From Gemmatimonadaceae bacterium (GTDB taxonomy: Bacteria; Gemmatimonadota; Gemmatimonadetes; Gemmatimonadales; Gemmatimonadaceae), in NCBI GenBank assembly GCA_013813715.1, contig JACCRF010000041.1, forward strand, positions 62,001 to 126,000: a stretch of 64,000 bases of DNA, given 5' to 3'. The stretch's first letter is position 1, and each line of letters begins with the position of its first letter. Below, one piece after another: positions 2,228 to 57,871 of this stretch. A program made the position numbers and the translations under genes. Under the pieces are notes generated by a model. That model ran no database searches, had not been told where the DNA came from, and saw only the letters and a list, made by a program, of their open reading frames with translations.

Positions 2228-4534
2228 TTGAGGACTCCAATTCCAGAGACGCGGGCAGCCGAGCCGCACCGGGCGTTCGCCACCGTCGCTGTATTCACCT
2301 CGTTCTCGGCGATTGCGATCGCCGCGGTCTACTGGATTTCCCGCATCGGCTTCGCCAATCCGGCGGCTCCGGTGGTCAGGTCGGCGATGCTGGCCGTTTT
2401 TCTCGCGACTGCACCTTATGCAGCGCGGTCTGCGCTGCGCCGTCGCCACCCGTCTGCCGGTCGATCGTTAGCCGGCACCAAACAAGGGGACGCGGGCAAT
2501 GGCCAGGGGGAACCGGCCAAGGTGGACCGGGCAACGGGTAGCGAGCACCGGGTGTCGGGCGCTGGGCAACGGAACAGCTACGGCTGGGCGACGTCGTACT
2601 CCTTTCTCTGGCTCCTGACGCTTGCGGTCACGGCGGTCGCCGGCCGTGCGGTTCTACTGTTTGGCGTCAATCTCTTCCCACTCCTCGGCACTGTCGGCGT
2701 CGTGTCCCTGGTCGTGATCGTCGCGCGCTGGATGATGCGAGGCCCGAAGCTGGCGAGCTTCGCGGTAATCGCAACGAGCATCGGCTTCGGCGCCTGGGCC
2801 GCTGGCGTCGTGTGGGGACGCATCTACAAGAGTCCGCTGTTCGCGGAGATGATGGCGCTCGACGGCATCGTCCATCACGACGCCATCGGCCTCGCCGCCC
2901 TCGGCAACATGCTCCGCACGTACGGGGTGGCGAGCGTCGGATTGGACGGCCTTCCCTACATGCCGTACCATTGGGGCTCATCGTGGCTCTTCGCGCAGAT
3001 GGCGAACCTGCTGGACATGAGCGTGCTCGATTTCTACCAGCTGGGTTATCCGGTCACGATGATTCCGTTTTTTCTGGGCGGCGTTCTCGGATTCGCGACC
3101 GAGGTTCGGGGGCTGACGCGTGAGCACGACGTCCGGTTGCAAGACCTGAGGAGCGACTTCGTTGCATGGGTCCTGCTTCTCGTTGCGACGATCGGTGTCG
3201 TTCCGATGGCCGCAATGGACGCGCTTGGAGTGTGGACATCGAACCTGGTGATCTCGGAGTCCTATGCCGTCGCGATCCCGTGCGCGCTGCTGCTGCTTGG
3301 CACGACGATGGTGTACTGGAAGGACTTCGGACCCGACCCGCTCGCGGCACAGAATCGGATTTCGGCTCTGCTGTTGCCCTGTCTGGTACTTCCGACGGGG
3401 ATCATTCTGCTGGGGTATCTCAAGATATCGCTGATGATTCTGGGCTTCGTCGTCGCCGGGTACGCGGCACTTCGGGTGGGTTTGCTCCGCCGCGGCGCCT
3501 TTTTGCTCCTGACGGTTGTTGTCGCGGTCGCGTTTGCACTTACGTCTCGCGAAGTCTCGCTTCCGGCGCACAGAGAGGGCCTCGCTCCGCTCGATTTCCT
3601 GAGGAGCTTTGTTCCCCCGGCCTGGTGGCCCTTGTTCCCGCTGGTGCACCTCTTCTGGTCTTTCCTCTACGTCGGACTGCGGATGAGAGCGACGGGGATT
3701 TCCACCATCGGCGGGCTTCGCGTCGCCGTGCGCGAAGGTCGGATTCTCGATGCGGAAGTGGTGACGGTGCTCGCGCTCGTCGGGCTGGCTCCCGGTTTGC
3801 TGCTTCACATCGATGGCGGGTCGGCCTTCTACTTTTCGGACGTGCAGCGGTGGCTGTCCGTTGGACTGCTGCTTGCAGGTGGCAGCGCGCTGATGTTTCA
3901 CGCACCTACGCCGCGTCAGGACTTTCCCCTGCGGAGGGCAGCGCTCGCGATGCTCGCGATCCCGCTCGCGATTTCCATGGCCATGAACGCGACGTTCTGG
4001 ATGCGGCAAATGCTGCGCGCGAATGCGGCGACGCGAAATGCCCTTTATTCAGCAAGCGCGAGTACCACATCGGGGTCCACTATTCGCGACCTTCCGTCGC
4101 TCGGCGACGGCACGCTGCTGCGAGCCGGCCTTCAGTCGGCGCGAAATCAGAACGCACTCTCCGAGCTTCGCCAGCTCGCCGATCTGCCTCGCGCGGATCG
4201 GCGCAGGACTGCTCTCTTCATTCCCCAGGACGAATCCGCCTATTGGGGAATTCTCGCGCGCCCCGGCGCCTGCACTTTTGCTGGCCACGTCGCCCCTGCA
4301 CTCGCGGCGATGGCGATGATAGACGGCATGCCTGCCGTGGGCTGCAAGCTGAGCCGCTATTACGGACTGAGTGGATACTCCCCGCGCTTACGCCCGCAGA
4401 CATTGCAGGACATGATGCCTTCCGTGCTCTGCGCGAAAGCGCGCCGGTATGGACTCGACCGCGTGCTCACTCTGCGGTTCGATGTGAAGGGCCGCGCTAC
4501 ACGCGAGTCCATACAGTGCAGCGGGATGTCATAA
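2228..4534 (+). CDS. large GT-C-like multi-pass membrane protein
   Basis: A 768-residue protein starting at TTG 2228, 7 bp after the GT2 gene. It has many membrane helices, a periplasmic-type loop with HHDAIGLAALGN and YMPYHWGSSW (about residues 217-258), and a soluble C-terminal domain of about 150 residues. The overall plan resembles the split pair at 5450 and 6435 (compare FGDLNIHLGMARS and YHFMFYF there), so both probably belong to one GT-C-like glycosyltransferase family using polyprenyl-linked sugars. Residues about 88-115 are a hydrophilic, low-complexity stretch (GDAGNGQGEPAKVDRATG) encoded by a GGGCAACGGG-type repeat at 2491-2573, so it looks like repeat DNA absorbed into the frame. 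Function is inferred; I recognise no single catalytic signature. Confidence 0.7.
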   Translation: MRTPIPETRAAEPHRAFATVAVFTSFSAIAIAAVYWISRIGFANPAAPVVRSAMLAVFLATAPYAARSALRRRHPSAGRSLAGTKQGDAGNGQGEPAKVDRATGSEHRVSGAGQRNSYGWATSYSFLWLLTLAVTAVAGRAVLLFGVNLFPLLGTVGVVSLVVIVARWMMRGPKLASFAVIATSIGFGAWAAGVVWGRIYKSPLFAEMMALDGIVHHDAIGLAALGNMLRTYGVASVGLDGLPYMPYHWGSSWLFAQMANLLDMSVLDFYQLGYPVTMIPFFLGGVLGFATEVRGLTREHDVRLQDLRSDFVAWVLLLVATIGVVPMAAMDALGVWTSNLVISESYAVAIPCALLLLGTTMVYWKDFGPDPLAAQNRISALLLPCLVLPTGIILLGYLKISLMILGFVVAGYAALRVGLLRRGAFLLLTVVVAVAFALTSREVSLPAHREGLAPLDFLRSFVPPAWWPLFPLVHLFWSFLYVGLRMRATGISTIGGLRVAVREGRILDAEVVTVLALVGLAPGLLLHIDGGSAFYFSDVQRWLSVGLLLAGGSALMFHAPTPRQDFPLRRAALAMLAIPLAISMAMNATFWMRQMLRANAATRNALYSASASTTSGSTIRDLPSLGDGTLLRAGLQSARNQNALSELRQLADLPRADRRRTALFIPQDESAYWGILARPGACTFAGHVAPALAAMAMIDGMPAVGCKLSRYYGLSGYSPRLRPQTLQDMMPSVLCAKARRYGLDRVLTLRFDVKGRATRESIQCSGMS
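2491..2573 (+). repeat. GGGCAACGGG-type dispersed repeat inside a coding region
   Basis: The stretch contains variants of CGGGCAACGGGTA and CACCGGGT, a theme shared with the near-identical 26 bp copies at 29656-29681 and 32182-32207. It is read in frame and encodes a hydrophilic insert between membrane segments of the GT-C-like protein. Confidence 0.5.
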
Positions 4535-4567
4535 CAGCGCTGAGTGGTCTCCGTTGCCGTCGATCGC

Positions 4568-5374
4568 CTAGCTCGCGGCCCCTCTCAAGCGGGCAGCTCC
4601 GGGCTCCACCTTGTCAGATTGTCTTGCGCGCGTAACTGCCGCGCTCCGATAGTCCCCACGCATCGCGCGCCGCCGAATCGTCACGAGGTCCTGAAACATC
4701 GTCATCGAATCGCGCAGCAGCCGCACCGTTGACACGTCCCCATTCACGAGCTGAACCGGAATTGGCCGGCCGTCGAGCCCGTTGTCCAGCGCGCAACGGA
4801 ATATCTCGACGTCGAAAGCGAAGTGATCCGTCTGAAGAAGCGGCGCCAGCGCATCGGCGACGGCGCCGTCGAAGCCCTTCAGGCCGCACTGAGTGTCGGT
4901 CGGCCGCAGCCCGGCAATCGTCGACACCGCTGACCGGAACACCACGCTGCTCAGGCGCCGCCGCCACGACGGGCGCGCTACGAGCGTCGACGCGGGCAGC
5001 GAACGGTCACCGTACACGAAGTCCGCGCCCCCGCGTATCGTTTCATAGCAGGTCACGAGAGAGTTCAGTCCGTACGGCAGATCGACGTCCGTGAAGATCC
5101 GGCATCGCCCCCGCGCGTCGAGCAAGCCGGTCCGTACCGCGGAGCCTTTGCCGCGATTCACCGGCAGCTGCACCAGCCGCGCCTCCGCTGGCAGCCGTCG
5201 TGGATCGGGCCGGCTCTCCGGATCGCTGCCGTCATCCACAAGTATCACCTCGAACGTCAGGCCGAGGCCGCCGAGGAAGTCGTGAAGTATCGCTGCGCTG
5301 CGGTGCGCGAGTGCCTTCGCCTGGTATGTCGGAACGATGATCGACAGATCGACCACCTGATGCGGTTTGGGCAA
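4568..5374 (-). CDS. GT2 dolichyl-phosphate-glucosyltransferase-like
   Basis: Probable polyprenyl-phosphate sugar transferase of the Alg5/DPG-synthase branch of GT2. The GT-A domain shows LSIIVPTYQAK, LVDDGSDPES, PVNRGKGSAVRTG (the flexible loop typical of this branch), the metal-binding FTDVDLPYG and DTQCGLKGF. It is 268 residues and lacks a clear membrane tail. The start is uncertain: TTG 5374 is the first start in frame, and a GTG lies about 18 bp further in. The gene lies convergent to the GT-C-like gene ending at 4534. A probable inversion breakpoint lies directly upstream at 5375-5450, so its original leader and its link to the minus-strand genes beyond 6435 may have been lost. Confidence 0.88.
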   Translation of the reverse strand: MPKPHQVVDLSIIVPTYQAKALAHRSAAILHDFLGGLGLTFEVILVDDGSDPESRPDPRRLPAEARLVQLPVNRGKGSAVRTGLLDARGRCRIFTDVDLPYGLNSLVTCYETIRGGADFVYGDRSLPASTLVARPSWRRRLSSVVFRSAVSTIAGLRPTDTQCGLKGFDGAVADALAPLLQTDHFAFDVEIFRCALDNGLDGRPIPVQLVNGDVSTVRLLRDSMTMFQDLVTIRRRAMRGDYRSAAVTRARQSDKVEPGAARLRGAAS

Positions 5375-5449
5375 TTGAATCTGTATCGGGATTTGGTGAG
5401 TCCTTCCTGGTTGCGACCCGCAGCCTTGAGGAGAATAAACTGTCCGTCC

Positions 5450-6499
5450 ATGTTATGCTGGCTGGCTGCGAATATTTTGGGGGCGAGGAATATGGTGCTG
5501 AACTGGGCAAAAGTGAGCGCGAGCTTTCGGCCCGACGATCTGAAGGGCGCCGTTTTCATCGGCGTAATCCTCGGACTCGGCGCGTTCTGGAACGGGGCCT
5601 TGATCATCGCCGCGCTGCTGATCCTGGGCGCGGCGGTCGTTTGGGCCCCACGCCGGATGGACCTCATTGTGTGCTGTGCGGTCGCAACCGTTCTCGCAAT
5701 TCTCGAGGCCCGCTTTTTCGTCAGAACGGGGCCCGCCATTGCACCCACGCCCTACATTGGGTTCCTCGCCGAGCCACCGACACTGAGGGGAATCGCGACG
5801 TATTACCTGAAGCTCCTCGGGCTGTTCGTGCCTCTCCTCACCATTGCCCTCTGGAAGCTGCGGCCGCAGGGCCGGCTGTTCCTCGCCTCGTTGCTAGTGC
5901 CGATTGGTTTCGCGACGACCTTCACGTTCACGCCTGACGTGTCGGTCAATCACAAGTTCGTCAACGCCGGCGTCAGGATCGCAGCGATATTCGTCGCAAT
6001 GCTGGTGGTGCGGATGTTCGACAGCGGCCGAATCGCGCGCGTGGCGGCGATTGCACTCTGTCTCGCGCTCACGGCCACGGGTGTGGTCGATCTCATCGCT
6101 GTCTGGAACTTCAACACCGAAAAACGGACTCACAATCTCGCCGATCCTCTGCTGCTGTGGGCATTGCGCGAGACAGACCCGCGAGCGGTGTTCGCAGCGC
6201 CCTCCGTGTATCATCACCTCGTCTACTTTACCGGAAGGCGGTCGTATCTGGGACTACCGTATTGGGCGGAATCGGCGGGCTACGATGTCGCGCCGAGGAA
6301 GGCGGTGCTCCAGCGAATCTACGAGGGCAATGACGCCGGGGAAATCGCACGCCTCGCCGCCTCCGAGGGAATTTCCTACGTCATCGTGGATGACATCGCG
6401 AGAGGCCACTACCCCGGGCTACGCGACGACGCTCTCAGGAAGCGGTTTCGCCTGGCGTTCGATCAGGGCTCGACGCAGGTGTACGCGCTTCACCCCTGA
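5450..6499 (+). CDS. C-terminal half of a GT-C-like membrane protein (inverted fragment)
   Basis: A protein of about 350 residues starting at ATG 5450, or at ATG 5492 which follows GGGGGCGAGGA. It has roughly eight hydrophobic segments (GVILGLGAFWNGALIIAALL, AVATVLAILEARFF, LLGLFVPLLTIALW and others) and a soluble tail of about 110 residues (SYVIVDDIARGHYPG). It lacks the first membrane segments and the luminal loop expected of a GT-C-like protein. Those parts are present in the convergent minus-strand gene 6435-7571, which in turn lacks this C-terminal part. The two overlap tail to tail by 65 bp, and their sum (about 728 residues) matches the intact 768-residue relative at 2228. I read it as the 3' half of one gene flipped by an inversion; whether it is expressed is unknown. 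Confidence 0.6.
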   Translation: MLCWLAANILGARNMVLNWAKVSASFRPDDLKGAVFIGVILGLGAFWNGALIIAALLILGAAVVWAPRRMDLIVCCAVATVLAILEARFFVRTGPAIAPTPYIGFLAEPPTLRGIATYYLKLLGLFVPLLTIALWKLRPQGRLFLASLLVPIGFATTFTFTPDVSVNHKFVNAGVRIAAIFVAMLVVRMFDSGRIARVAAIALCLALTATGVVDLIAVWNFNTEKRTHNLADPLLLWALRETDPRAVFAAPSVYHHLVYFTGRRSYLGLPYWAESAGYDVAPRKAVLQRIYEGNDAGEIARLAASEGISYVIVDDIARGHYPGLRDDALRKRFRLAFDQGSTQVYALHP

Positions 6500-11158: not shown

Positions 11159-14100
11159 ATGGAGTTCCATCAACAGAGAGCGGCAATTGCCCGGCGCGCG
11201 ACACTTGTGTCGATTGCCGGGGGCCTTCTCGCGTTCGGATGGGGATGCGGCGAACCGACGGCTCCACCTGCTCCAGTTGCTACGGTCGGCATCGCGCCGT
11301 CGACTGTAATTAGAGTCGTGCCCGGCGGGAGTGAGTCTCTGTCGGCGGTGCCGAAAGATGCCGCGGGAAACACGCTGACCAACCGCACCGCGACGTGGGC
11401 CAGTTCCGACCCTTCGAAGGTGACTGTGGCCGGCGGTCTCGTAACGGGCGTGGCGAAGGGCAGCGCCACTGTCACAGTGACGGTGGAAGGTCGCACGGCG
11501 ACCGCCGAAGTAGAGGTGAGAGACGGCGCGGTCGTGACACCGAGTGGAGCATCGTTCTCGGCATTCGACGGAGCAATCGCTGTCGCGGTTCCGCCCGGGG
11601 CATTCACCCAGACCCGAAACGTGACGCTCGCCCCGGCGTCGGCGCCGCCGCCCAACAGCCGATTGGTCGCCGGAACGGCGTTCGAAATAGGACCGGCAGG
11701 CATGACCGCAGCCGCTCCAGTCGGGATCACGATCGCGTACGATCCGGCAAAAGTGGACTCGGACAGCCCGCAGAGTGGGCTACAGCTCTACGAAGTCGTC
11801 GGCGGCAACTGGAGCCTCGTTGCCAACAGTACCGTCGATGTCACGGCTCGGAAAGTCTCGGGGAATGTCACGCAGTTCGGCACCTACGCCATACTGATGC
11901 AGCCGCGCGTTGACACGGTGACGGTTAACGGCCCGCCCGCGTCGCTCGCATCGCAGGCTACTTTCCAGTTCACCGCGACGCTGAAGGACAACACTGGTCT
12001 GGTTCTGAACCGCACGGCGACCTGGACCAGTTCGAATCCTGCAGTGCTGCGAATCGATGCGACGACCGGCCTCGCTACTGCGCTCGTGCCTGGCACGGTT
12101 ACGGTGACCGCGATCTCGGAAAAGAAAACGGGAACCGCAACCGTTACCGTGGTGCCAGGCCCGCCGGCCCGCCTTATTCGGGTTGCGGGAGACGGCCAGA
12201 CCGCCGCGGCCGGAATCGCCGTGCCGATTCCGCCGTCGGTCAAGGTCACCGACCAGTTCGGGAACGCTATTCCCGGATTCGCGATTGTCTTCGCGGTGAC
12301 GGGCGGCGGCGGTCAGATTACGGGCGGCTCCGCGGCAACGAACGCGGAAGGCGTAGCCACCGTTGGAAGCTGGGTCCTCGGAACGGTCGCCGGACAGAAT
12401 AGAATAACTGCCAGTGGAGCCGGGCTTCCCGAGAGCCCGCTCACCTTCACGGCATCGGGTGTCGCCGGCGGGGCGGCAATAATCGCGGCCGCATCGGCGA
12501 CCGCCCTCACGGGAACCGCTGGAGGGCTCGTCGGCACACTGCCATCGGTGAAGGTGACCGACGCCAACGGCAACGCGGTCGGCGGCGTTACAGTCACTTT
12601 CTCGCCGTCGGGCGGGGGCAGCGTAGAGGGTGGAAGCGCGACCACCAACAGTTCGGGCCTCGCGACCGTTGCAAGCTGGAGACTTGGGACGACGGCGGGC
12701 TCCCAGACGCTTCTGGCGACCGCGCCGGGCCTCACGGGAAGCCCAATTACGTTCACGGTCGCCGCGGCGGCTCCGGTGCCATCGACGATCGCCGCCAACG
12801 CCGGTAATGGGCAGACCGCCGTGATACTGGGGGCGGTGGCGATTCCCCCGTCGGTGCGCATCACGGATCCTGCCGGAATCCCGGTGCCGGGAGTCCAGGT
12901 TACGTTCGCCGTCACCGGCGGCGGGGGCAGCATCTCGGGAGCCAGCCCCGTCACCGACGCAAACGGCGTCGCGGCGGTAGGAGGCTGGGTGCTGGGCCCG
13001 ACCGTCGGCCAGAACACATTGACGGCCACCTCGGGGACGCTGTCCGGCAGCCCAGTGACTTTCACCGCGACAGCTTTTGCGCCGGTGCCGGTCGCGATCA
13101 CCATAGTCGCGGGCGACAACCAGACGGTCAACGCGGGCCAGCCGGTGCCTGTGGCGCCCGCCGTCAAGGTCACCGACGCAGACGGTCGCGGCGTGCCCGG
13201 CGTCGCGGTCAGCTTTACGATCAGAAGCGGCGCCGGATCGGTGACCGGAGGAGAGACGACGACCAACTCGTCCGGCATCGCGACCGTCGGTAGCTGGGTA
13301 CTCGGCCTCGATGGCAACTCGCTCCTCGCCACGTCCGTCGGACTAACCGGCAGCCCGCTCGTTTTCGTCGCTACTGGGATGCCATTCATTCAGATTGTGA
13401 CGTTCGGCGACTCGAATACCGATCTTGGGACTCGTGGCACCGAACCGCTTATCCAGGCGACTTCCTATGTCTCCAACGCGCCGTCGCCTCCAACGGCCGT
13501 CCGTCTAGGGCCGAACGATCCGAACAACCCGTTCCAGCTCGCCGGCAAGATCGAGGCGCGCTGGCGTGCCAGCCGGAGCGAGATAATCCGCGCTATAAAC
13601 CACGGCATTTCGGGAACGGGAACGGGAACGGGTCGAAACTCACTCACGAGCCCCAACGCTTTCGAGGTGTGGCAGGGCGTGAGCCGGTTCGAGGCGGAGG
13701 TTCTTGGCATAGGTTATCTATGGTACGGCGGAGAGCTGACGAGTCCGACCTTCCCCAACGGTCCGGTGCCGCGGCTGCGCGCGTTCACTCCCAGGGCCGC
13801 CGATTTCGCCTACGTGTCGCTAGGCACCAATGACGTTGTCGCTGGGATGACCCCCGAGGCGACGATCGCCAACCTCGCCCGGATGGCGGACATGTGGATT
13901 GCCGCGGGACTTCCGGCGAGCCACTTCATCATCACGACGCTGCCGCCGCGCGAGCCGCAGTACAGCGCTACCCTGCCCACGATCAACGCCGGCATCCGCG
14001 GGTTGCGCGACACGCGCGGCATCCGTCTCATCGACATCGCCGCGTTCACTTCGGCGGATAATGGATTGACCTGGCTCCGTGCGAGCCTCCACGTGGACAA

Positions 14101-14176
14101 CGATCCACTTCACGTTGCCGAGGAGGTGCGGACCTGGATCGCAGAGCGCGTTTTCGAGATCATCAACGCGCCCTGA
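11159..14176 (+). CDS. secreted Ig-repeat protein with C-terminal SGNH/GDSL hydrolase
   Basis: Probable cell-surface esterase or deacylase on a long Ig stalk. From ATG 11159 (1005 residues): an export signal (ARRATLVSIAGGLLAFGWGC, with Cys 30 in a poor lipobox), a Big_2-like domain (about 38-120), a ZU5-like domain (about 125-250), a second Big_2-like domain (about 255-335), four Big_1-like repeats of about 100 residues (about 336-740), and an SGNH hydrolase (about 742-1005). The hydrolase shows the catalytic Ser block TFGDSNTDLG, the Asn block SLGTNDVV and the Asp/His block DNDPLHVA, so all catalytic positions appear present. SGNH enzymes often remove or add acyl groups on polysaccharides, and the surrounding locus suggests such a substrate, but that is inference. 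A TTG 15 bp upstream is an alternative start. Confidence 0.85.
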   Translation: MEFHQQRAAIARRATLVSIAGGLLAFGWGCGEPTAPPAPVATVGIAPSTVIRVVPGGSESLSAVPKDAAGNTLTNRTATWASSDPSKVTVAGGLVTGVAKGSATVTVTVEGRTATAEVEVRDGAVVTPSGASFSAFDGAIAVAVPPGAFTQTRNVTLAPASAPPPNSRLVAGTAFEIGPAGMTAAAPVGITIAYDPAKVDSDSPQSGLQLYEVVGGNWSLVANSTVDVTARKVSGNVTQFGTYAILMQPRVDTVTVNGPPASLASQATFQFTATLKDNTGLVLNRTATWTSSNPAVLRIDATTGLATALVPGTVTVTAISEKKTGTATVTVVPGPPARLIRVAGDGQTAAAGIAVPIPPSVKVTDQFGNAIPGFAIVFAVTGGGGQITGGSAATNAEGVATVGSWVLGTVAGQNRITASGAGLPESPLTFTASGVAGGAAIIAAASATALTGTAGGLVGTLPSVKVTDANGNAVGGVTVTFSPSGGGSVEGGSATTNSSGLATVASWRLGTTAGSQTLLATAPGLTGSPITFTVAAAAPVPSTIAANAGNGQTAVILGAVAIPPSVRITDPAGIPVPGVQVTFAVTGGGGSISGASPVTDANGVAAVGGWVLGPTVGQNTLTATSGTLSGSPVTFTATAFAPVPVAITIVAGDNQTVNAGQPVPVAPAVKVTDADGRGVPGVAVSFTIRSGAGSVTGGETTTNSSGIATVGSWVLGLDGNSLLATSVGLTGSPLVFVATGMPFIQIVTFGDSNTDLGTRGTEPLIQATSYVSNAPSPPTAVRLGPNDPNNPFQLAGKIEARWRASRSEIIRAINHGISGTGTGTGRNSLTSPNAFEVWQGVSRFEAEVLGIGYLWYGGELTSPTFPNGPVPRLRAFTPRAADFAYVSLGTNDVVAGMTPEATIANLARMADMWIAAGLPASHFIITTLPPREPQYSATLPTINAGIRGLRDTRGIRLIDIAAFTSADNGLTWLRASLHVDNDPLHVAEEVRTWIAERVFEIINAP
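12166..13380 (+). repeat. four tandem Ig-like (Big_1-type) coding repeats
   Basis: Four units of about 300 bp encode diverged copies of a domain with the pattern PPSVKVTD, then VTFAVTGGGG, then a block like GVATVGSWVLGT, then SPLTFTA. The copies keep the SWVLG core while the rest varies, so they are old duplications rather than recent slippage. Confidence 0.8.
13617..13634 (+). repeat. GGAACG hexamer microsatellite in the SGNH domain
   Basis: Three consecutive GGAACG units are read in frame as alternating Gly-Thr (GTGTGTG) between the Ser and Asn blocks of the hydrolase. Changes in copy number would keep the frame. Confidence 0.7.
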
Positions 14177-29735: not shown

Positions 29736-30539
29736 TTGGGTGTGCGTGCGCAGTTCTACGAGAGTGTGGTTTCCAAGTGTATCCCCGATCGAGACGCTTC
29801 GGTTCTCGTGGTCGGGGGGGGCGAGACGGACAGGGGGGTTTTCGACGGCCTTGGCTTCAGGAACGTCGTAATTACGAACCTCGACACCCGTGCGACCGAA
29901 GCCGAGTTCGCGCCTTTTGCCTGGGAGCGGCAGGATGGGGAATGCCTGACCTATCCCGGCGAGAGCTTCGACTTCGTCGTCGCCAATGCCGTCCTGCATC
30001 ACTGTCGGTCACCACACCGGGCGCTGCTCGAGATGTACCGCGTGGCCAGAACCGGAATGGTCGCGATCGAGTCGCGCGACAGCCAACTGATGAAACTGTT
30101 CGAGAAGCTGAATCTGACGCAGGTGTACGAGCCGACAGCTGTTTTCTATAACGACTGCCGGTTCGGCGGGGTATCCAACACGGAGATTCCCAACTTCATC
30201 TATCGGTGGACCGAGAGGGAGGTCGAAAAAACCATTCGGTCATTTGCGCCGGAGGTACAGCCGTCGATCGAGTATTTCTACGGGTCGGACGTGCCCTGCA
30301 CGCCCGGTCTGGAGAAAAAAAGCGGGGGCAGGCAGCGGCTGATCGAGCTTCTGGTGCCGGCTTACAGGCTGTTCGCGATGGTCGCACCGCGACAGCAAAA
30401 TTTGTTCGGCTTCAGCGTTACCAAGCCGTCACCGTCCGAGCGGCTTCAGCCATGGCTCAAATGGGACGAGGACCGGCCCCGTTTCGACTCGGAGTGGGCA
30501 AAGGCAAGGTTCAAGGAAGGCGCCGCGACTCCGCTTTAA
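29736..30539 (+). CDS. class I SAM methyltransferase
   Basis: A methyltransferase of 267 residues of the Methyltransf_11 type, starting at TTG 29736 with CAGGAGTAAGG upstream. SAM-binding region: VLVVGGGETDRGVF (about residues 23-36; GGG replaces the usual GxGxG with an acidic residue next), LDTRATEAEFAPF and FDFVVANAVLHHCRSPHRAL, the common motif-II/III stretch. The C-terminal 120 residues are not recognised. Such enzymes in O-antigen loci often methylate sugars, or the chain end to stop growth; either is possible. Its TAA overlaps the TAA of the convergent Wzi gene in a shared TTAA (30536-30539). Confidence 0.75.
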   Translation: MGVRAQFYESVVSKCIPDRDASVLVVGGGETDRGVFDGLGFRNVVITNLDTRATEAEFAPFAWERQDGECLTYPGESFDFVVANAVLHHCRSPHRALLEMYRVARTGMVAIESRDSQLMKLFEKLNLTQVYEPTAVFYNDCRFGGVSNTEIPNFIYRWTEREVEKTIRSFAPEVQPSIEYFYGSDVPCTPGLEKKSGGRQRLIELLVPAYRLFAMVAPRQQNLFGFSVTKPSPSERLQPWLKWDEDRPRFDSEWAKARFKEGAATPL

Positions 30540-32224
30540 AAGTTTTGTCTCAATCCCAGCACAAAGCTTCCGTTCGTGCGATCGCCGGTGAAATTTCGGT
30601 TCAGCTCAGTCGTCAGGACGATCCGTCCGAGAACGTCTACCGGGCCGATGAAACGCAGGGCCTCGATGCCGACTGAATTCATCACGTCCACAGCGCGGGG
30701 CGTGTCAGGCCCTGACTGATACTGCGTGAGCACTTCTTTCGACACCGCCCGGCTCACGAACGCTGTCATCCGGCCACGTGTCGTGAATCGATCGACGGCG
30801 AAGCTCTGTGCACCGCCGCTTCCCGGCCCGACATCGGCGCCGAGCATCTGGCCCCGAAACGTGTGACCCTGGCGATGTACCCCGTGGAGATAGATCTGCC
30901 CCTCCCCGCGCGTACGTGACCCCGCCGGTGAGCTGTAGTTGAATACCTCGCCGCGCACGGCCGTCAGCTTCTGAGCTGACCCCCACACGCGACGAACTCC
31001 GATGTTCGTGGCCGCCGCATGATCCGGCTCGAGCAGCAGATCCCGCAGATCGCCGCTGTGATCTTCGCGGCCGTACTCACCGTACATCTCGAATCCGCTC
31101 CCGGGCGGGGCCCACCGCAGGAACAGGGATGCGAGCTGGTTCTCCTTCAGTGAGCGGTCCCCTCCCAATACGGGAACTTCGCTCTCCTTCGGCAGCCTGC
31201 TCTTGAAGATGTTCTGAAACGGAAGTCCCAGATTGTGCGACGAGACTCCGTTGCTGTCGCTCGCAGCGTGAAAGAAACGCGAAGCGCCGATCTCGAGTCC
31301 GGACATCCCCCGCGGCTGGAAGATGCCGATAAGTCCCGCCATGAACCGCGTCGTGCCGGCGAGATCGAAACTCTCGAAGTAAGTCGGACCAATAACCGTC
31401 GAGAAAGGCGACTGGTACAGGCGTCCGTACACTACCCGGCCGTGCACTCTGCCGATCCCGACGTTCGCCGGCGTCGATGTACCGACGAACACGTGGGGAA
31501 AGCCGCCCGCATTGTTGCCGAGCACATACGGATATTTGTCGGTCGGGCCCCACCACTGACTGGCGGTCGATACCCCTGCCGCGATACCGGCAACGTCCAC
31601 TCTGAGAGTGCTCTGACCGAAATCCGCGCGACTGTATGGGAGAGCGCCGAACCGTTGCGGCCGGTCGATTGCCCGTGGAAACTGGCCATCGGCATAAACG
31701 AACCGCCCGCTCTCGGTATTCCGGAGAAGCCGAAACGACTGGTTCTCCGCGCGAAACGCTGTCGGGGCGACAACTGCCGAAAACGGACCCCATCGCGCCG
31801 AGACGCCCGTCTGGAAAGCACTGGTGAGGCCCTTGCCCGTCCACGCCGCGCCGTCGTTGCCACCGAACGGATACGACGTGTTGATCGTCATGATCAACGA
31901 CGGCCGAATGTAGTCCCAACTGGAGCCGCGATGAGTGCGGCGACCAAGGTTGTACCGTCTCGCCCATGGGTGGTTGGCATCGGCGGGACCCAGTGCGTCG
32001 AGTTCCACGGGGGAGAATCCTCTGATGCTCCACGGGTAACTCTCCGGTTTCGACATTGTCTGCACGTATCGCAGGTAGCTCTCGAGCTCGCTGCCGGCGA
32101 ATATCTCGCTCCTGCCGCCCGCCGGCGACTGTGCGACCGCAGATCCGGCCGACGCTGCGAGAATGCCAATGAGCATGTAGACGCGGGTAATGGGCACCGG
32201 GTAACGGGTAACGGCTCTACTCAT
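30536..32224 (-). CDS. Wzi-like capsule-assembly outer-membrane protein (type A)
   Basis: Outer-membrane beta-barrel of the capsule-assembly Wzi family, expected to bind or position polysaccharide at the surface. From ATG 32224 a signal peptide (RVYMLIGILAASAGSAVAQ) is followed by a helical plug-like part (SYLRYVQTMSKPESYPWSIR, ELDALGPADANHPW), then alternating beta strands with family-like motifs YPFGGNDGAAWTGKGL, QWWGPTDKYPYVLGNNAGGF, FQPRGMSGLEIGASRFFH and EPDHAAATNIG. The last residue is Phe (LGLRQNF), as in many outer-membrane proteins. ATG 32176 is an alternative start; codons upstream of it come from a 26 bp dispersed repeat. Paralogous to 54271-56022. Divergent from a second Wzi-type gene at 32430. 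Confidence 0.85.
   Translation of the reverse strand: MSRAVTRYPVPITRVYMLIGILAASAGSAVAQSPAGGRSEIFAGSELESYLRYVQTMSKPESYPWSIRGFSPVELDALGPADANHPWARRYNLGRRTHRGSSWDYIRPSLIMTINTSYPFGGNDGAAWTGKGLTSAFQTGVSARWGPFSAVVAPTAFRAENQSFRLLRNTESGRFVYADGQFPRAIDRPQRFGALPYSRADFGQSTLRVDVAGIAAGVSTASQWWGPTDKYPYVLGNNAGGFPHVFVGTSTPANVGIGRVHGRVVYGRLYQSPFSTVIGPTYFESFDLAGTTRFMAGLIGIFQPRGMSGLEIGASRFFHAASDSNGVSSHNLGLPFQNIFKSRLPKESEVPVLGGDRSLKENQLASLFLRWAPPGSGFEMYGEYGREDHSGDLRDLLLEPDHAAATNIGVRRVWGSAQKLTAVRGEVFNYSSPAGSRTRGEGQIYLHGVHRQGHTFRGQMLGADVGPGSGGAQSFAVDRFTTRGRMTAFVSRAVSKEVLTQYQSGPDTPRAVDVMNSVGIEALRFIGPVDVLGRIVLTTELNRNFTGDRTNGSFVLGLRQNF
32182..32207 (+). repeat. 26 bp dispersed repeat, copy 2
   Basis: Reads CGCGGGTAATGGGCACCGGG then TAACGG, 24 of 26 identical to the inverted copy at 29656-29681, with another GGTAACGG unit directly after. 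In the minus-strand Wzi gene it is translated as the positively charged start of the signal peptide (RAVTRYPVPITR). Confidence 0.8.
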
Positions 32225-32429
32225 CAGTCATTCTCGATAAACAAGGTTTGCAGGGCCATGGCGTCGCCGCTAACTTATCATGGGGGTCGCCGTCATGCGG
32301 ACGACCACTATACTTACTTTCATGTCCGGCGCGCAGCAAGCTCGCACGTGCCAAGGACGCGTGTGCCAGGCTGGCACCGATTTCACTCCGACTTGCGCCG
32401 GACAGCAATTTACCATTCTTCATTCAATA
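32225..32429. promoter_or_regulatory. divergent intergenic region of Wzi pair 1
   Basis: About 205 bp separate the two divergent Wzi-like genes and must hold their promoters. In-frame starts for the plus gene exist at 32280 and 32295 but lack a signal peptide directly after them. No clear promoter was recognised. Confidence 0.35.
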
Positions 32430-34094
32430 ATGCGTCCTTCCCAACGCTTACGGCACCTCATGGTCGCGGCCGTCGTCCTCACGCCCTTAGAGCAGTCGTT
32501 GGCGCAGTTCAGGCCGACGCCGGTGCCGCTGCGGGAGCCACTGACGCAGGGCGTGGTCACTGTGAGCGGGGACTCGGTCGACCGGCTGCGCCTGGCCGAG
32601 CTCGGCGGTAGTGCGCGCGTTGACGGGCTCATGTTGCGGTCGACATCGACGCTCACTGATCCGCGCCGGTCGGAATATGCGGCCCGTAGCTTCACGCTCG
32701 TATTTCCCCTCGTTCATTTCGTCTCGAACAGCGAGTTGCCCTTCGGCCAGAATGACGGCGCGCTCTGGGCGGGAAAGGGCGCGAACGTTCGCGTGCTGGG
32801 CGGATTCACGGCGTCTTTCGGTCCGGTGCGGCTGGTCGCGATTCCGGAATTTGTCTATTCGGCGAATAACCGCCTTTCCATTGACCCCACGGACGAGCGT
32901 CTCACGATGCCCGTCCCGCCGTCGCGCAGCAGATTTTCGTCTCCCTTCAACGTCTTTCCGTACTCGCTCGACCTGCCGTGGCGCTTCGGCACCAAGTCGC
33001 TCAGCCGGCTTTACGGTGGACAGTCGTCCCTTACGGTGACGGCGGGTCCGATACAGGTCGGCGCCGCGTCCGAGAACGAATGGTGGGGGCCGGCGATCCG
33101 GAATCCCATCGTGATGAGCGATAACGCGCCTGGCTTTCCTCATGCATTCCTGCGCACCAGCGCCCCGGTCAACACGATACTCGGCCGCCTCGACGCCCGC
33201 TTCATCGTGGGTGGAGTGCACGAGTCCGATTTCTTCAACGACTCTGTTGCCGACGATGTGCGGTCGCTCAGCGCGATCGCGCTGACGTGGAAGCAGAGTG
33301 CCGCATCCGGCCTGACGCTTGGGTTCACGCGGTCGGTGTTCGCGCCGGTCGACGGGTACAGCGAGGTCGCGGGCAGCGCGTTCGATGCGTTTCGCGGGGT
33401 CGGCCATCCGAACGCCATGTCGCTCACCGACTCCACGATGGAGCCGGGGCCCGATCAGATCGTCTCCCTGTTCGCGCGGTGGGCGCTGCCGCGCCATGGG
33501 CTCGAGAGTTATGTGGAGTGGGGGAGAGCTGACTTCCCGGTGTCGCCGCGCGATTTCCTCGAGCAGCCGAATCACTCTCGCGGCTACACGGCAGGATTCC
33601 AGTGGGTTCGCGCGTTCTCGGCAGGTTCGTCGCGTGTGCGCCTCCAGGGTGAGCTGACGAGTGTCGAGCAGAGCACAACTTATCGTTTCCGTCCCGTCGG
33701 ATCGTTTTACACGAGCCGCGCCGTACTGCAGGGCTACACAAACGAAGGACAGCTTATTGGCGCAGGGCTCGGCCCCGGATCTTCAGGCGGTTGGCTGGCG
33801 GGGGATTATTTCCGCGGCGGCTGGCAGTTCGGCCTCTCGATCGGGCGGACGCGCTTCAACAACGACGCGTTCTTCCTTCAGCGGTACGCCAGCCGTTGCG
33901 GTCACGACGTGACGATCTATCCCGGGCTTCGTGCGAGCTACTCGAACCGCTATCTCCGTCTCGGAGCCGAGTTCGCGGCAGTGGACAGATACAACACGTT
34001 CTTTCAGAACAACGCGAGCTGCGACGCTGGCGGAGCGGGAACTGACAGGTCGAACAAGAATCTGTGGGTGACTCTGGCGACGTTCGGCTGGTAA
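32430..34094 (+). CDS. Wzi-like outer-membrane protein (type B)
   Basis: A second, distinct Wzi-like barrel, about 554 residues from ATG 32430, which puts a signal peptide first (RHLMVAAVVLTPLEQSLAQ). An N-terminal domain (DSVDRLRLAELGG) is followed by beta-strand-rich sequence with LPFGQNDGALWAGKGANVRV, ASENEWWGPAIRNPIVMSDN, PGFPHAFLRTSAPVNTILGR, ESYVEWGRADFPVSPRDFLE and AGLGPGSSGGWLAGDYF. The order NDGxxWxGKG, then EWWGP, then N(A/N)PGFPH, is shared with the minus-strand neighbour and with 54271 and 56174. It is closest in layout to 56174-57871. Two Cys near the C-terminus (SRCGHDV, NASCDAGG) could form a disulphide. Expected in the outer membrane. Confidence 0.85.
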   Translation: MRPSQRLRHLMVAAVVLTPLEQSLAQFRPTPVPLREPLTQGVVTVSGDSVDRLRLAELGGSARVDGLMLRSTSTLTDPRRSEYAARSFTLVFPLVHFVSNSELPFGQNDGALWAGKGANVRVLGGFTASFGPVRLVAIPEFVYSANNRLSIDPTDERLTMPVPPSRSRFSSPFNVFPYSLDLPWRFGTKSLSRLYGGQSSLTVTAGPIQVGAASENEWWGPAIRNPIVMSDNAPGFPHAFLRTSAPVNTILGRLDARFIVGGVHESDFFNDSVADDVRSLSAIALTWKQSAASGLTLGFTRSVFAPVDGYSEVAGSAFDAFRGVGHPNAMSLTDSTMEPGPDQIVSLFARWALPRHGLESYVEWGRADFPVSPRDFLEQPNHSRGYTAGFQWVRAFSAGSSRVRLQGELTSVEQSTTYRFRPVGSFYTSRAVLQGYTNEGQLIGAGLGPGSSGGWLAGDYFRGGWQFGLSIGRTRFNNDAFFLQRYASRCGHDVTIYPGLRASYSNRYLRLGAEFAAVDRYNTFFQNNASCDAGGAGTDRSNKNLWVTLATFGW

Positions 34095-53832: not shown

Positions 53833-54274
53833 TCAGGCGGGGATGGTAACAGCGGACGGATGTGAAGGCCCGCGCAGTCTCACCGACGTTGCGCGAATCG
53901 AGAGCGCCGCAAGAGCGACGAGGCTCAGCGACATCGAGATGCTATCCCGGCGAATGAGACAGAGCACGACGAAGATTGCGAGCGACACGATGAGGTTTCG
54001 GCTGTTCACCGCCTTCACGTTTGTCGCGAGCGCGAAATGCCCGGCCGAATAGCCTTCCTGCACACCAGCCCGCGCGATCGCGATGTATCGGGGCGCGGCG
54101 ATTCCCAGTCCCATGACGAGTGGAAGATACAGAAGCCCCGTCGCGGGCGGGAGAGCGCGTACTCCCCGAAGCCCATCGGTCCGAGCATCGAGGCCACGAC
54201 TTTCAGCAGGAAAATCCCGCGGCTATCACGATCAGCTCCGCGAGCGTCGTCCACGCGAGCTGTCCGCGCATCAT
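53833..54274 (-). pseudogene. decayed Wzx-like flippase gene
   Basis: Parts of one flippase appear in three frames on the minus strand. ATG 54274 overlaps the Wzi stop and starts MMRGQLAWTTLAELIVIAAG. A shift continues with IFLLKVVASMLGPMGFGEYA (a typical flippase N-terminus). Another shift gives MGLGIAAPRYIAIARAGVQE and GYSAGHFALAT. That is followed at once by NSRNLIVSLAIFVVLCLIRR, which looks like a late membrane segment, so most of the middle is gone. About 440 bp remain of an expected roughly 1300. It precedes rfbA by 10 bp. Confidence 0.75.
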
Positions 54275-56022
54275 CGCAGGTTGTAGCGCACGCCCAGCAG
54301 TGCGTTGATGTTCCACGCATCAGCGTCAAAATACCGGTTGAATTCGCGCACGAGAGATAGCCCGCCGGTGAGGTCGTATGCGCCAATGAATCGCGACATC
54401 TCGAAGCCGAGCGCATGTGTCACGTTGATCGCCTCCGGCCGCCGCACGCCGAGCACGAGGTAGTCGCCTATCTCCCCCTTGAGGTCGCGCTTCCAGCTCG
54501 CGGTCCAGCGCCCGTGAGGGAAGAAGCGGTCCACCGCCAGCGTAGACCCCGCCGCGGCGCCGGCGCCCACGTCCGCGCCGAGGAGCTGCCCGCGATTCGT
54601 GTGTCCCTGACGAATCAGGCCGTGAATGTAGATCTCGCCTTCCCCGCGGTACCGGCTCAGTTGCGGGAGCTGAAAGTTGATGATCTCCGCGCGCACCGCA
54701 GTGAGTGCTCTTGGAGTGAACGCGACCACCTTTCTCATCCCGATGCCATAGAAGCGCGAGTGGTCGGGCTCCTGAAGGAGATCGCGAAAGTCTACGCTGT
54801 GGTCATCCCGTCCATATTCGCCGAAGAGCTCGAATCCGCTTCGCGGAAGAACCCATCGTGCGAAACCCGAAACGAGCTGATTGTCTGCGACGCCGCGGTC
54901 GTCGACGCCCTCCTGAAAGGGGGAGTCTGGAATCCTGTCCGGCTGCAGGCTCTTCTTGAGGAAGCCCTGAAACGCCTTGGTAGCGTAGCTTCGCGGAATT
55001 CCCGACCGGGGCCAGATCGAGTGAAAGAATCTCGACACTCCGACCTCGAGGCCCGTGATGCCGCGCGGCTGAAACGCCATGACGAATCCGGTGGTGAACC
55101 GCTTCGTGCCCGGCTCGGCGCGGCTGGTGTATTCGGCGGGACCGGTAACCGTCGAGAAGTCCGACTGGGCGAGCGTGCCCCACATTACTTTGCCGTGAAT
55201 CCTGCCGATGAAGATGTTGAGCGGCTCGCTCGATCCGACGAACACGTGCGGAAAGCCCGCCGCGTTGTTGCCCAGTATGAGCGGATATTCGCCGCCGGGT
55301 CCCCATCCCTGGTTCGCCGTCGAGGCCCCGAACGCGAGGAAGGGAAAGTCCACACGCAACGTGCTCTGGCCAGGATCGATCTGCGAGTATGACGAAGCTC
55401 CGAAACGCTGAGGGCGGTCAATGCCTCCCAAACGATCGTCCGCAAACTGCCTGCCGCCCGGGAGCCCGGTTGGGACTGTATTGAAGAACCGGTTCTCGGC
55501 GATGAACGCGCTAGGCGCGAGCGTCAGCGATACGGGCCCCCACCTCACCCATGCCCCGAGCTGCACTGACGACGTGAGACCGCGACCCGCCCACACCGCG
55601 CCGTCGTTGTTCCCGTACGGAGACCCGGTATTGTAGCGAAACGCGGCCGACGGATCGATGATGTCCCAGCGGACGGGACCAATCGATCTGCCGTCGTTGG
55701 CGAGGCGCCGGCGCCACGGATGAGCGCTATCGCGCGGGATGAGCCGATCGAGCTCGCGTGCAGAAAATGCCCGCGTGGACCACGGATAACCCGGCACTCT
55801 GCCCGTCGTCTGGAGATAGCGGAGATAGTTCTCGGGATCGCTGCCGACGAACACCTCTGCTCGCAGGCTCGCCGCCCCGGTCGCCGCGCCGGTCGCTGTC
55901 GCGCTCGCGAACGTCGCGGCGGAATCCTGCGCGACGGCGACGGCGACTGTGGCAATCATCAGCAATGAGATCGTCGATGCCACGCGAATCGCGCGTACTC
56001 CGGCGCTTCTCATCCTATTCAT
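54271..56022 (-). CDS. Wzi-like capsule-assembly outer-membrane protein (type A)
   Basis: Outer-membrane barrel of about 583 residues. From ATG 56022 (MNRMRSAGVRAIRVASTISL) a signal peptide ends near VAVAVAQ; the longer frame to 56256 overlaps the opposite gene. Motifs match the other type A gene at 30536: DPENYLRYLQTTGRVPGYPW, YGNNDGAVWAGRGLTSSVQL, STANQGWGPGGEYPLILGNN, AGFPHVFVGSSEPLNIFIGR, FQPRGITGLEVGVSRFFHSI and EPDHSRFYGIGMRKVV. Expected role is surface attachment or secretion of polysaccharide, known for the Wzi family. The flippase remnant starts inside its stop codon, suggesting they were once co-transcribed. Divergent from the type B gene at 56174. Confidence 0.87.
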   Translation of the reverse strand: MNRMRSAGVRAIRVASTISLLMIATVAVAVAQDSAATFASATATGAATGAASLRAEVFVGSDPENYLRYLQTTGRVPGYPWSTRAFSARELDRLIPRDSAHPWRRRLANDGRSIGPVRWDIIDPSAAFRYNTGSPYGNNDGAVWAGRGLTSSVQLGAWVRWGPVSLTLAPSAFIAENRFFNTVPTGLPGGRQFADDRLGGIDRPQRFGASSYSQIDPGQSTLRVDFPFLAFGASTANQGWGPGGEYPLILGNNAAGFPHVFVGSSEPLNIFIGRIHGKVMWGTLAQSDFSTVTGPAEYTSRAEPGTKRFTTGFVMAFQPRGITGLEVGVSRFFHSIWPRSGIPRSYATKAFQGFLKKSLQPDRIPDSPFQEGVDDRGVADNQLVSGFARWVLPRSGFELFGEYGRDDHSVDFRDLLQEPDHSRFYGIGMRKVVAFTPRALTAVRAEIINFQLPQLSRYRGEGEIYIHGLIRQGHTNRGQLLGADVGAGAAAGSTLAVDRFFPHGRWTASWKRDLKGEIGDYLVLGVRRPEAINVTHALGFEMSRFIGAYDLTGGLSLVREFNRYFDADAWNINALLGVRYNLR

Positions 56023-56173
56023 TGACGGCGTCAAATGGTAACTTTGTCCCCTGAAATTCAGACTTGTTGGAGCCCAGTTAGCGGACCGGAAATCGTTGCT
56101 CTCAAGCGCCACACAATCTAAGACAAGCCATCGGCAGCCGCTCGTGCCATGCAGCGTCCGCCGCGCGAAGCAG
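56023..56173. promoter_or_regulatory. divergent intergenic region of Wzi pair 2
   Basis: 151 bp separating the two divergent Wzi-like genes, so promoters for both must be here or within the 5' ends. No clear box pair was recognised. Confidence 0.35.
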
Positions 56174-57871
56174 ATGGCTTTTCTCGAACTTGCCGCGTCA
56201 ATGCTTGCCGCATCCATGTTCGGCGGCGGATCGATGCTCGCACAGCAGCCGGCCATCGCCGCGGCAGGCGACAGCGCTGGCGTGCTGTCGTATGTCGTGC
56301 CGCTGATCCTCGTCGGCGGTCAGCCCGCCGACCGCCTCCGGCTCGAGCAGATGAGGGGCAACGCGAGTCTCAGCGGCTACATGATTCGCTCGCCGTCGTC
56401 GCTGACGCCATGGCCCGCGAGCTCGAGATGGTGGAGCGCGTCGCTCATCGCGCCCGAGCTTTACGCTGCCCACAACACGGCGATCCCTTTCTCGATCAAC
56501 GACGGTCCAGTCTGGGCCGGCGTCGGCGCGAGCACGCGAGTGATTTCAGGCGTGCGACTCTCTGCGGGACCGCTGCGAATCACTCTCGCGCCAGAGCTGG
56601 TACAGGCCGAGAACGCATTTTTCCGGCTCCGGGACACGGTGCGCTTCTACGCGCCGCCGGTGCCCGTCGAGCGGAGCGGCGGAGGTTTCGTCTTTCCCTG
56701 GTATGTGAAGCCTTACTCGATCGACCTGCCGATGCGTTTCGGCCGCGAATCGATCCAGCGGGTTGACGCCGGGCAGTCGACCGTCTCGGTCGGATTTCGC
56801 GGCGCCGAGGCGGGCGTCTCCAACGAGAACCATTGGTGGGGACCGGGCGTGCGCAACGCACTCGTCCTCAGCAACAACGCACCCGGTTTCCCTCACCTGT
56901 TCGCAAGAACGGGGCGGCCGTGGCGCAACCGCTTCGGCGAGCTCGAGGCGCGTCTCATCGTTGGCGGTCTCACCGAATCGAAGTACTTCGACACCACTTC
57001 CACAAACAATCTCAGGTCTCTGAGCGCGTTCGCGGTGACCTTTAACCCCCGGTTTCAGCAGAACCTCGTCATCGGGGCGTCGCGCTCCGTATTCGCGACT
57101 TCCAAAGGCTGGAAACGAATTCCGGGACGGTTCCTCGACGCGTTCGCGGCCACTGGCCGTCCGAACAATCGTCCCCTTGCCGATTCGTCGCTCTATCCCG
57201 GCGGCCGCGACCAGATCTACTCGCTGTTCGGCCGGTGGGTCTTCCCGGACGACGGATTCGAGGCGTATGCCGAATGGGCGCGCACCGAATTTCCCATTTC
57301 GCTGCGCGATCTGCTCGTCGCCCCCAACCACACTCAGGGCTACACGCTAGGTCTGGGCTGGACACGCCAGGCGTTCAGAGAGGAGGGGCGGGTTCGGCTT
57401 CAGGCAGAGGTCACGAGCGTCGAGCAGAGCGCGACGTTTCGCGACCGGCCGCAAGGAAGCTACTACACGAGCCGTCGTGTCATTCAGGGATACACTCAGA
57501 TGGGCCAGCCGCTGGCGGCAGCGATCGGCCCCGGTGCATCGGGACAGTGGCTCGCTGCCGATTACATCGAGGCGGCGTGGAGCTTCGGGGTCTTCGCGGG
57601 CCGCATCCGCTGGAACGAGGATATCCACAGCACCTTCGGATTCCCCCTTTACCAAGGTTACTGCATCCACGATGTGAGCGTCTTCCCTGGAGCTAAAGCG
57701 TCCGCCGGCGGCCGTTTCGGCTATATTTCCGCCGACTTGTCGTTCGGTAACCGCTTGAACGCTTTTTTCCAGGAGCAGTCGGGATGCCCAAAGGGCAATT
57801 CGGTGCTGGACATCCGGAACCGGACGATGACTGTGACTGTGGGCACGTTCACGCCCGGCTGGGGCCGATGA
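56174..57871 (+). CDS. Wzi-like outer-membrane protein (type B)
   Basis: About 565 residues from ATG 56174, where a signal peptide follows (MAFLELAASMLAASMFGGGS, cleaved near MLAQQ); 56096 is a longer in-frame start without merit. The motif order matches 32430-34094: DRLRLEQMRGNASLSGYMIR, IPFSINDGPVWAGVGASTRV, VSNENHWWGPGVRNALVLSN, NAPGFPHLFARTGRPWRNRF, EAYAEWARTEFPISLRDLLV and AIGPGASGQWLAADYIEAAW. It keeps the same two late Cys regions (GYCIHDV, QSGCPKG). This gene and 54271 repeat the divergent pair at 30536/32430, pointing to duplication of a two-gene module. Expected in the outer membrane. Confidence 0.87.
   Translation: MAFLELAASMLAASMFGGGSMLAQQPAIAAAGDSAGVLSYVVPLILVGGQPADRLRLEQMRGNASLSGYMIRSPSSLTPWPASSRWWSASLIAPELYAAHNTAIPFSINDGPVWAGVGASTRVISGVRLSAGPLRITLAPELVQAENAFFRLRDTVRFYAPPVPVERSGGGFVFPWYVKPYSIDLPMRFGRESIQRVDAGQSTVSVGFRGAEAGVSNENHWWGPGVRNALVLSNNAPGFPHLFARTGRPWRNRFGELEARLIVGGLTESKYFDTTSTNNLRSLSAFAVTFNPRFQQNLVIGASRSVFATSKGWKRIPGRFLDAFAATGRPNNRPLADSSLYPGGRDQIYSLFGRWVFPDDGFEAYAEWARTEFPISLRDLLVAPNHTQGYTLGLGWTRQAFREEGRVRLQAEVTSVEQSATFRDRPQGSYYTSRRVIQGYTQMGQPLAAAIGPGASGQWLAADYIEAAWSFGVFAGRIRWNEDIHSTFGFPLYQGYCIHDVSVFPGAKASAGGRFGYISADLSFGNRLNAFFQEQSGCPKGNSVLDIRNRTMTVTVGTFTPGWGR

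Follow-up and report, generated by a model that had tools for sequence, protein, structure and literature searches.

An Ig-stalked SGNH protein of the Gemmatimonadota as a possible anchored O-acyl esterase

What an SGNH hydrolase might do at the tip of a long stalk of immunoglobulin (Ig)-like domains is the question raised by a gene in a 64,000-nucleotide stretch of a Gemmatimonadaceae bacterium (assembly GCA_013813715.1, contig JACCRF010000041.1, positions 62,001 to 126,000), which is referred to here as the window. A preliminary description of this DNA had proposed that the protein is a surface-tethered esterase that could trim acyl groups from an exported polymer, and had drawn this role from the polysaccharide locus in which the gene lies. 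That interpretation is partly supported by the present analysis, in which the proposed role is plausible for a reason other than the polysaccharide locus. The reading tentatively favoured here is that of an anchored SGNH O-acyl esterase that would edit glycan acylation and be comparable with Ape1 of Neisseria.

The stalked SGNH architecture of the window protein is confirmed as real and not a product of chance, because the GDSN, GTND and DxxH motifs are kept in all 12 aligned heads and 59 columns are invariant among nine heads. The order of parts is a signal peptide, a lipobox-like Cys, a Big_2 domain, a ZU5-like domain, a second Big_2 domain, four Big_1 domains and a C-terminal SGNH head; from the first Big_2 domain to the head this agrees with the preliminary description. 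In Pfam, the four Big_1 stretches (109.6 bits) and the two Big_2 stretches (40.9 bits) score above their cut-offs, whereas the ZU5 match (about residues 122-246) is weak (15.9 bits, E 0.016, against a cut-off of 21), is seen only when the segment is scanned alone, and reaches 17.3 bits in one ortholog. A full-length structure model, which served for local beta-domain boundaries only and not for the shape of the stalk (predicted template modelling score, pTM, 0.32; head poorly modelled), shows successive beta domains, seven as read, over residues 41-741, with ten-residue means of the predicted local distance difference test (pLDDT) of 64-89. The matches of the protein to PHROGs fall inside the stalk, and an alternative start in the same frame is TTG 11144.

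SGNH enzymes carry a Ser-His-Asp set plus an oxyanion hole (PMC9487903). A model of the head alone, built from nine homologues, gave pLDDT 85.9 and pTM 0.88, and its fold matches, with Z 16.6-20.2 over 168-195 residues, are mostly SGNH/GDSL enzymes among the 50 listed. The closest solved folds among these matches include an E. faecalis acylhydrolase (Z 20.2) and a polyvinyl alcohol esterase (Z 20.1), and other close ones are an S. meliloti carbohydrate acetylesterase (Z 19.1) and PbeAcXE (Z 18.9); the identity of the head to PbeAcXE and polyvinyl alcohol esterase is 22-25% over the aligned parts. By its modelled fold and its block I, II, III and V residues, the head belongs to the SGNH hydrolase superfamily (CL0264), and the Ser, Asn and Asp-x-x-His that had been described as intact correspond to Ser752, Asn891 and Asp982-x-x-His985. 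Structures of AlgX, PatB and OatA are absent from the 50 listed matches, a list that is no proof of absence, and the window protein has no Pfam match to ALGX, to DUF459 (PatB) or to any carbohydrate-binding module (CBM) at E up to 1. The family also has a specific stretch between blocks II and III, with the consensus RFxxEVLG...WSGGE. An Asp-box-like SxDxGxTW precedes block V in nine of the 12 heads (ten when N is accepted in place of D; it lies at head residues 225-232, window about 14051-14074). A search of solved-structure sequences with the head profile gave no strong match, and its best hits (E 0.0086) are sialidases, which come to the top because of this Asp-box-like motif.

Conservation of the catalytic Ser, Asn, Asp and His in every aligned head also makes it very improbable that the head serves as a surface ligand or adhesin tip without catalysis, an idea suggested by inverse autotransporters such as intimin and invasin, in which a run of Ig-like domains is capped by a tip domain (PMC6555100). 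The window protein shares with them the Ig-like run that carries a tip, but it has a lipobox-like Cys and an enzyme head, no outer-membrane barrel was seen in Pfam or model results, and the intimin model scores 17.7 bits against a cut-off of 1400.

The window's genome is not alone in having the combination. With a nine-row profile, the head family was found in eight of 395 sampled Gemmatimonadota genomes, in ten copies above 350 bits; this counts the genomes above 350 bits among 38 that matched at E up to 1e-4, the remaining 30 having been set aside as generic SGNH proteins with at most 38.2 bits over about 83-105 of 260 positions. Within the genus, 7 of 19 genomes carry the family, which adds G397 and G398 (G, C and L numbers label genomes, contigs and loci) and brings the carriers to ten genomes altogether. 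As sampled here, the head family is a narrow one of the Gemmatimonadota. In a pattern scan of genome contigs, which is limited by its pattern and has little power outside the phylum, one of 27 candidate stretches was a relative; one named carrier record is a Gemmatimonadaceae metagenome-assembled genome, and a plasmid collection gave no match. In a midpoint-rooted tree of ten heads, the window head groups with those of four genus mates (support 99/99).

The stalk varies across the family. Stalks within the genus have four to six Big_1 stretches in Pfam; Big_2 is detected in most members, but not at L023, and ZU5 weakly at L024 and in the window segment scanned alone. Both copies in G207 have an FN3 stalk, G032 has no recognised stalk domain, and in G245, where the Pfam scan covered the head only, about 20 residues by eye separate the Cys from the head. 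Since Big_1, FN3, domain-free and nearly absent stalks all carry the same head, the stalk would be a spacer rather than a substrate-specific part. One phylum thereby shows the same enzyme head on an Ig stalk, on an FN3 stalk or without a stalk.

At the N-terminus, the lipobox-like Cys is Cys30, and a Cys occupies the equivalent place in all nine homologues with a readable N-terminus, judged by eye. The GWGC of the window protein is an atypical lipobox, in which W at -2 is unusual; some homologues have a more usual setting (LGGC, LVGC or LAGC, by eye). The window protein is probably exported and anchored by a lipid, as judged from its sequence.

The window gene does lie among glycan-biosynthesis genes, as had been described. 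It is surrounded by PMT_2-type proteins, many glycosyltransferases, and Wzy/Wzx-type and Wzi-like proteins, and near it are a WbuC-like cupin (28.6 bits against a cut-off of 42) and a LegC-like aminotransferase (337 bits against 420). Further glycan genes lie upstream of the window in L076 and L077 (G000:C77:24000-62900): a Wzt-type ABC exporter, a cytidylyltransferase and a pair of NeuB-type synthases, together with an MBOAT, the one such gene that was detected in the genome. These upstream genes suggest a nonulosonic-acid glycan.

The functional argument built on this neighbourhood does not hold. In five genus mates (G127, G016, G276, G397 and G398) the gene stands directly at the PxpC end of a PxpA-PxpB-PxpC run, names that we take from matches to LamB_YcsF, CT_C_D and CT_A_B; these 5-oxoprolinase-type neighbours were checked with Pfam in G016 only. 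A blast comparison of seven ortholog loci with the window's open reading frames (ORFs) of at least 90 residues, covering up to about 10 kb on each side, with two loci on short contigs and one cut on one side, gave no common flanking gene at E 1e-8; the loci matched the window at the stalked protein itself and at other-frame ORFs over it, and nowhere else. In the window's genome the same block is found on contig C47 (L089, G000:C47:8000-20000), where PxpC is followed after 122 bp by MscL and then by PALP, with no stalked gene. The usual genus site is empty in this genome, and the block has no room for a 3-kb gene; the gene sits elsewhere, and its location is therefore no guide to the substrate. 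With none of the seven ortholog loci sharing a flanking gene and the usual site empty, linkage to the polysaccharide locus was ruled out as functional evidence. The PALP gene on C47 contains one in-frame TAG in the genome search.

Acyl trimming itself finds support from a different set of neighbours. At three of seven distinct sites, the stalked SGNH gene adjoins, or is one gene away from, a membrane O-acyltransferase gene (AT3 or MBOAT); a further copy, G306:C310, is on a 3.3-kb contig and was not placed at any site. In G306 and G397, which represent one common site, the stalked gene is preceded on its own strand by an AT3-only gene (PF01757, 104-108 bits), at distances of 61 and 130 bp; the G397 copy is seemingly split over two contigs, and its outer genes match those of G306. 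Random placement would give these pairs with probabilities of about 0.004 and 0.006, both pairs sharing the one site. G207 (91% complete, 450 contigs) has two MBOAT genes in total, of which one is 80 bp from one stalked copy and the other 947 bp from the second, each convergent with it, and in the second case a small SGNH-like ORF intervenes. Both MBOATs end in FLYFQF, compatible with the FXYXXF motif (PMC12148441). Placed at random, one copy would lie this close with a probability of about 0.003, and the two together with one of about 1e-5 provided that the cassettes are independent, which they may not be. The extra SGNH-like protein has an ALGX match of 50.1 bits in one cassette; in the other, GDS and DxxH can be read by eye in the intervening ORF, whose GDSL match of 20.2 bits is below the cut-off. 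Because each MBOAT already has another SGNH-like protein alongside, the stalked protein would be a third party in these cassettes, and because they combine an MBOAT, another SGNH protein and a stalked SGNH protein, they resemble the PatA/PatB/Ape1 set.

The Neisseria genes patA, patB and ape1 make up a single operon, and Ape1 takes off the groups that PatA and PatB attach (PMC6174289, PMC12148441). Ape1 resembles the stalked protein as an SGNH enzyme with an N-terminal accessory part, coded (as in G207) beside an MBOAT and another SGNH protein. The two differ in that the accessory domain of Ape1 is CBM35-like whereas the stalked protein has an Ig or FN3 stalk; moreover, the window gene is outside any such cluster, and the activity of the stalked protein is a predicted one. 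As an esterase of this kind, the exported and probably lipid-anchored SGNH head would be held off the membrane by about seven Ig-like domains, which at about 4 nm per domain would give a reach of about 25-28 nm. The triad Ser752-His985-Asp982 would act on acyl esters of a bacterial envelope glycan, most likely acetyl esters, with water freeing the acyl group. The protein would thus trim what membrane O-acyltransferases (MBOAT or AT3) attach, in the role that Ape1 has towards PatA/PatB. The esterase direction, the glycan substrate and acetyl as the group are what we infer from these comparisons.

Block II bears on whether the head would remove acyl groups or add them. PatB has Ser or Asn in place of the Gly of this block, a substitution that together with a hydrophobic wall is a proposed mark of transferases (PMC12148441). 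Among the 12 heads this residue is G in eight, S in two, N in one and A in one, and since Gly is retained in the window protein and in the G306 head linked to AT3, unlike in PatB-type transferases, hydrolysis is favoured for both. The competing reading, a doubtful second, is that of an SGNH O-acyltransferase which would take acyl groups from a membrane AT3 or MBOAT protein onto a glycan, with the stalk bringing the head within range of its partner or the polymer. It draws on the AT3-only genes directly upstream in G306 and G397, on the ability of the AT3-only protein WecH to pass acetyl to the soluble SGNH protein PatB (PMC9558356), and on the Ser, Asn or Ala at block II in four of the 12 heads, both MBOAT-linked ones included. 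It is opposed by the Gly noted above, by the SGNH-like protein that already accompanies the MBOAT in both G207 cassettes, by the lack of ALGX and DUF459 matches, and by a model search that found no AT3 in the window's genome, the same model being positive in 10 of 14 control genomes. Either direction would suit the AT3 pairs, and the esterase is favoured over the transferase.

Several observations weigh against the esterase reading. Both MBOAT-linked G207 heads have Ser or Ala at block II, as in transferases, which speaks against a simple esterase there, and the two G207 MBOATs are 42% identical, so the cassettes may stem from one duplicated event. Four of the seven sites (the PxpC site in five genomes, G032, G245 and the window) are without a close acyltransferase, genome-wide AT3 and MBOAT matches being on other contigs or far away. 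In the window's genome, 45 kb separate the MBOAT from the stalked gene, a weak association expected at about 2.5% by chance, and the 387-residue ORF beside this MBOAT is SGNH-like by eye only, with no Pfam match. The acyltransferase link was noticed post hoc, although acyl chemistry had been proposed beforehand. Finally, in Pfam the window protein falls short of the cut-offs for Lipase_GDSL_2 (PF13472; 30.5 bits against 32.9) and Lipase_GDSL (20.0 against 23.6); the same head reached 34.7 bits, above the cut-off, in a six-frame genome search, and of eight homologues with the head seven pass Lipase_GDSL_2 and all pass Lipase_GDSL. The G207 heads without block II Gly and the neighbour judged by eye slightly lower the probability given to the esterase and raise that of the transferase.

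The sites without close acyltransferases also bear on an unlikely third reading, in which an anchored scavenging or lipolytic enzyme would act on outside polymers, esters or lipids and its acyltransferase neighbours would be incidental. The absence of such neighbours in G245 and G032, the 5-oxoprolinase-type genes at the main genus site, and the polyvinyl alcohol and carbohydrate esterases among the top listed fold matches are in keeping with it; the position of both G207 MBOATs within 1 kb of the two stalked copies and the AT3 pairing at a separate site are not.

Each part of the protein is known, and neither the combination nor its pairing with AT3 or MBOAT was found in the literature among the matches listed; the listed open-licence PMC papers include none that describes such an Ig-stalked SGNH enzyme. 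AT3-SGNH acyltransferases (OatA, OafA/OafB; PMC9558356) likewise bring AT3 and SGNH parts together, as happens at one site in two genomes here, but in our case the genes are separate, the SGNH part is on an Ig stalk and the search of the window's genome gave no AT3. Modular SGNH esterases of carbohydrates and polymers (CBM plus SGNH, as in CE2; PbeAcXE; polyvinyl alcohol esterase) also have a C-terminal SGNH domain behind N-terminal domains, whereas the window protein has a Big_2-ZU5-Big_2-Big_1 stalk. How AT3-only proteins finish acyl transfer, and whether an SGNH partner is needed, has been raised as a question (PMC9558356), for which the AT3 and stalked SGNH pairs of G306 and G397 and the MBOAT/SGNH/stalked-SGNH cassettes of G207 are natural test sets. 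A further reading, improbable and more so than the scavenging enzyme, is that the stalked SGNH protein, encoded by a gene of its own, supplies the extracytoplasmic partner missing from AT3-only (and some MBOAT) acyltransferases of the Gemmatimonadota. If it were that partner, an Ig or FN3 rod would carry an acyl-handling head to glycan far from the inner membrane, and acyl export would be spatially separated from acyl placement or removal.

Coordinates of the stalked SGNH gene, its parts and the acyltransferase-linked relatives (window positions unless a locus is given)
Feature	Position	Strand	Basis or remark
Stalked SGNH gene	11159-14176	+	1005 residues counted from ATG 11159; stop at 14176
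Predicted signal peptide, residues 1-29, basic n-region and hydrophobic core	11159..11245	+	read from the sequence
Cys30, putative lipidated Cys (AFGWGC-GE)	11246..11248	+	read from the sequence; lipobox rule
Big_2 domain 1	11279..11518	+	Pfam and full-length model
ZU5-like domain	11522..11896	+	weak Pfam match below cut-off; beta domain in model
Big_2 domain 2	11915..12154	+	Pfam and full-length model
Big_1 domain 1	12164..12463	+	Pfam and full-length model
Big_1 domain 2	12479..12769	+	Pfam and full-length model
Big_1 domain 3	12785..13078	+	Pfam and full-length model
Big_1 domain 4	13094..13381	+	Pfam and full-length model
SGNH head, 265 residues (741-1005)	13379..14173	+	homologue alignment, head model and fold comparison
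Block I Ser752 (GDSN), candidate nucleophile	13412..13414	+	head alignment
Block II Gly819	13613..13615	+	head alignment; family-variable
Block III Asn891 (GTND)	13829..13831	+	head alignment
Block V Asp982-Pro-Leu-His985	14102..14113	+	head alignment
AT3-only gene and stalked SGNH paralog, G306:C461	L094:1537-5523	same strand	AT3 gene at 4306-5523; SGNH copy broken by a frame break near 3093
AT3-only gene and stalked SGNH paralog, G397:C314	L092:6308-10082	same strand	SGNH copy runs off the contig
G207 cassettes: FN3-stalk SGNH, MBOAT and another SGNH-like protein	L026:5168-9450 and L029:302-4902		

Elsewhere in the window's genome, L005 (G000:C134) codes in one frame for a multi-pass-looking protein (by eye) with a C-terminal SGNH domain, to which the MBOAT and AT3 models gave no match. 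The Wzi-like capsule assembly proteins of the window form two divergent pairs, at 30539-34091 and 54274-57868.

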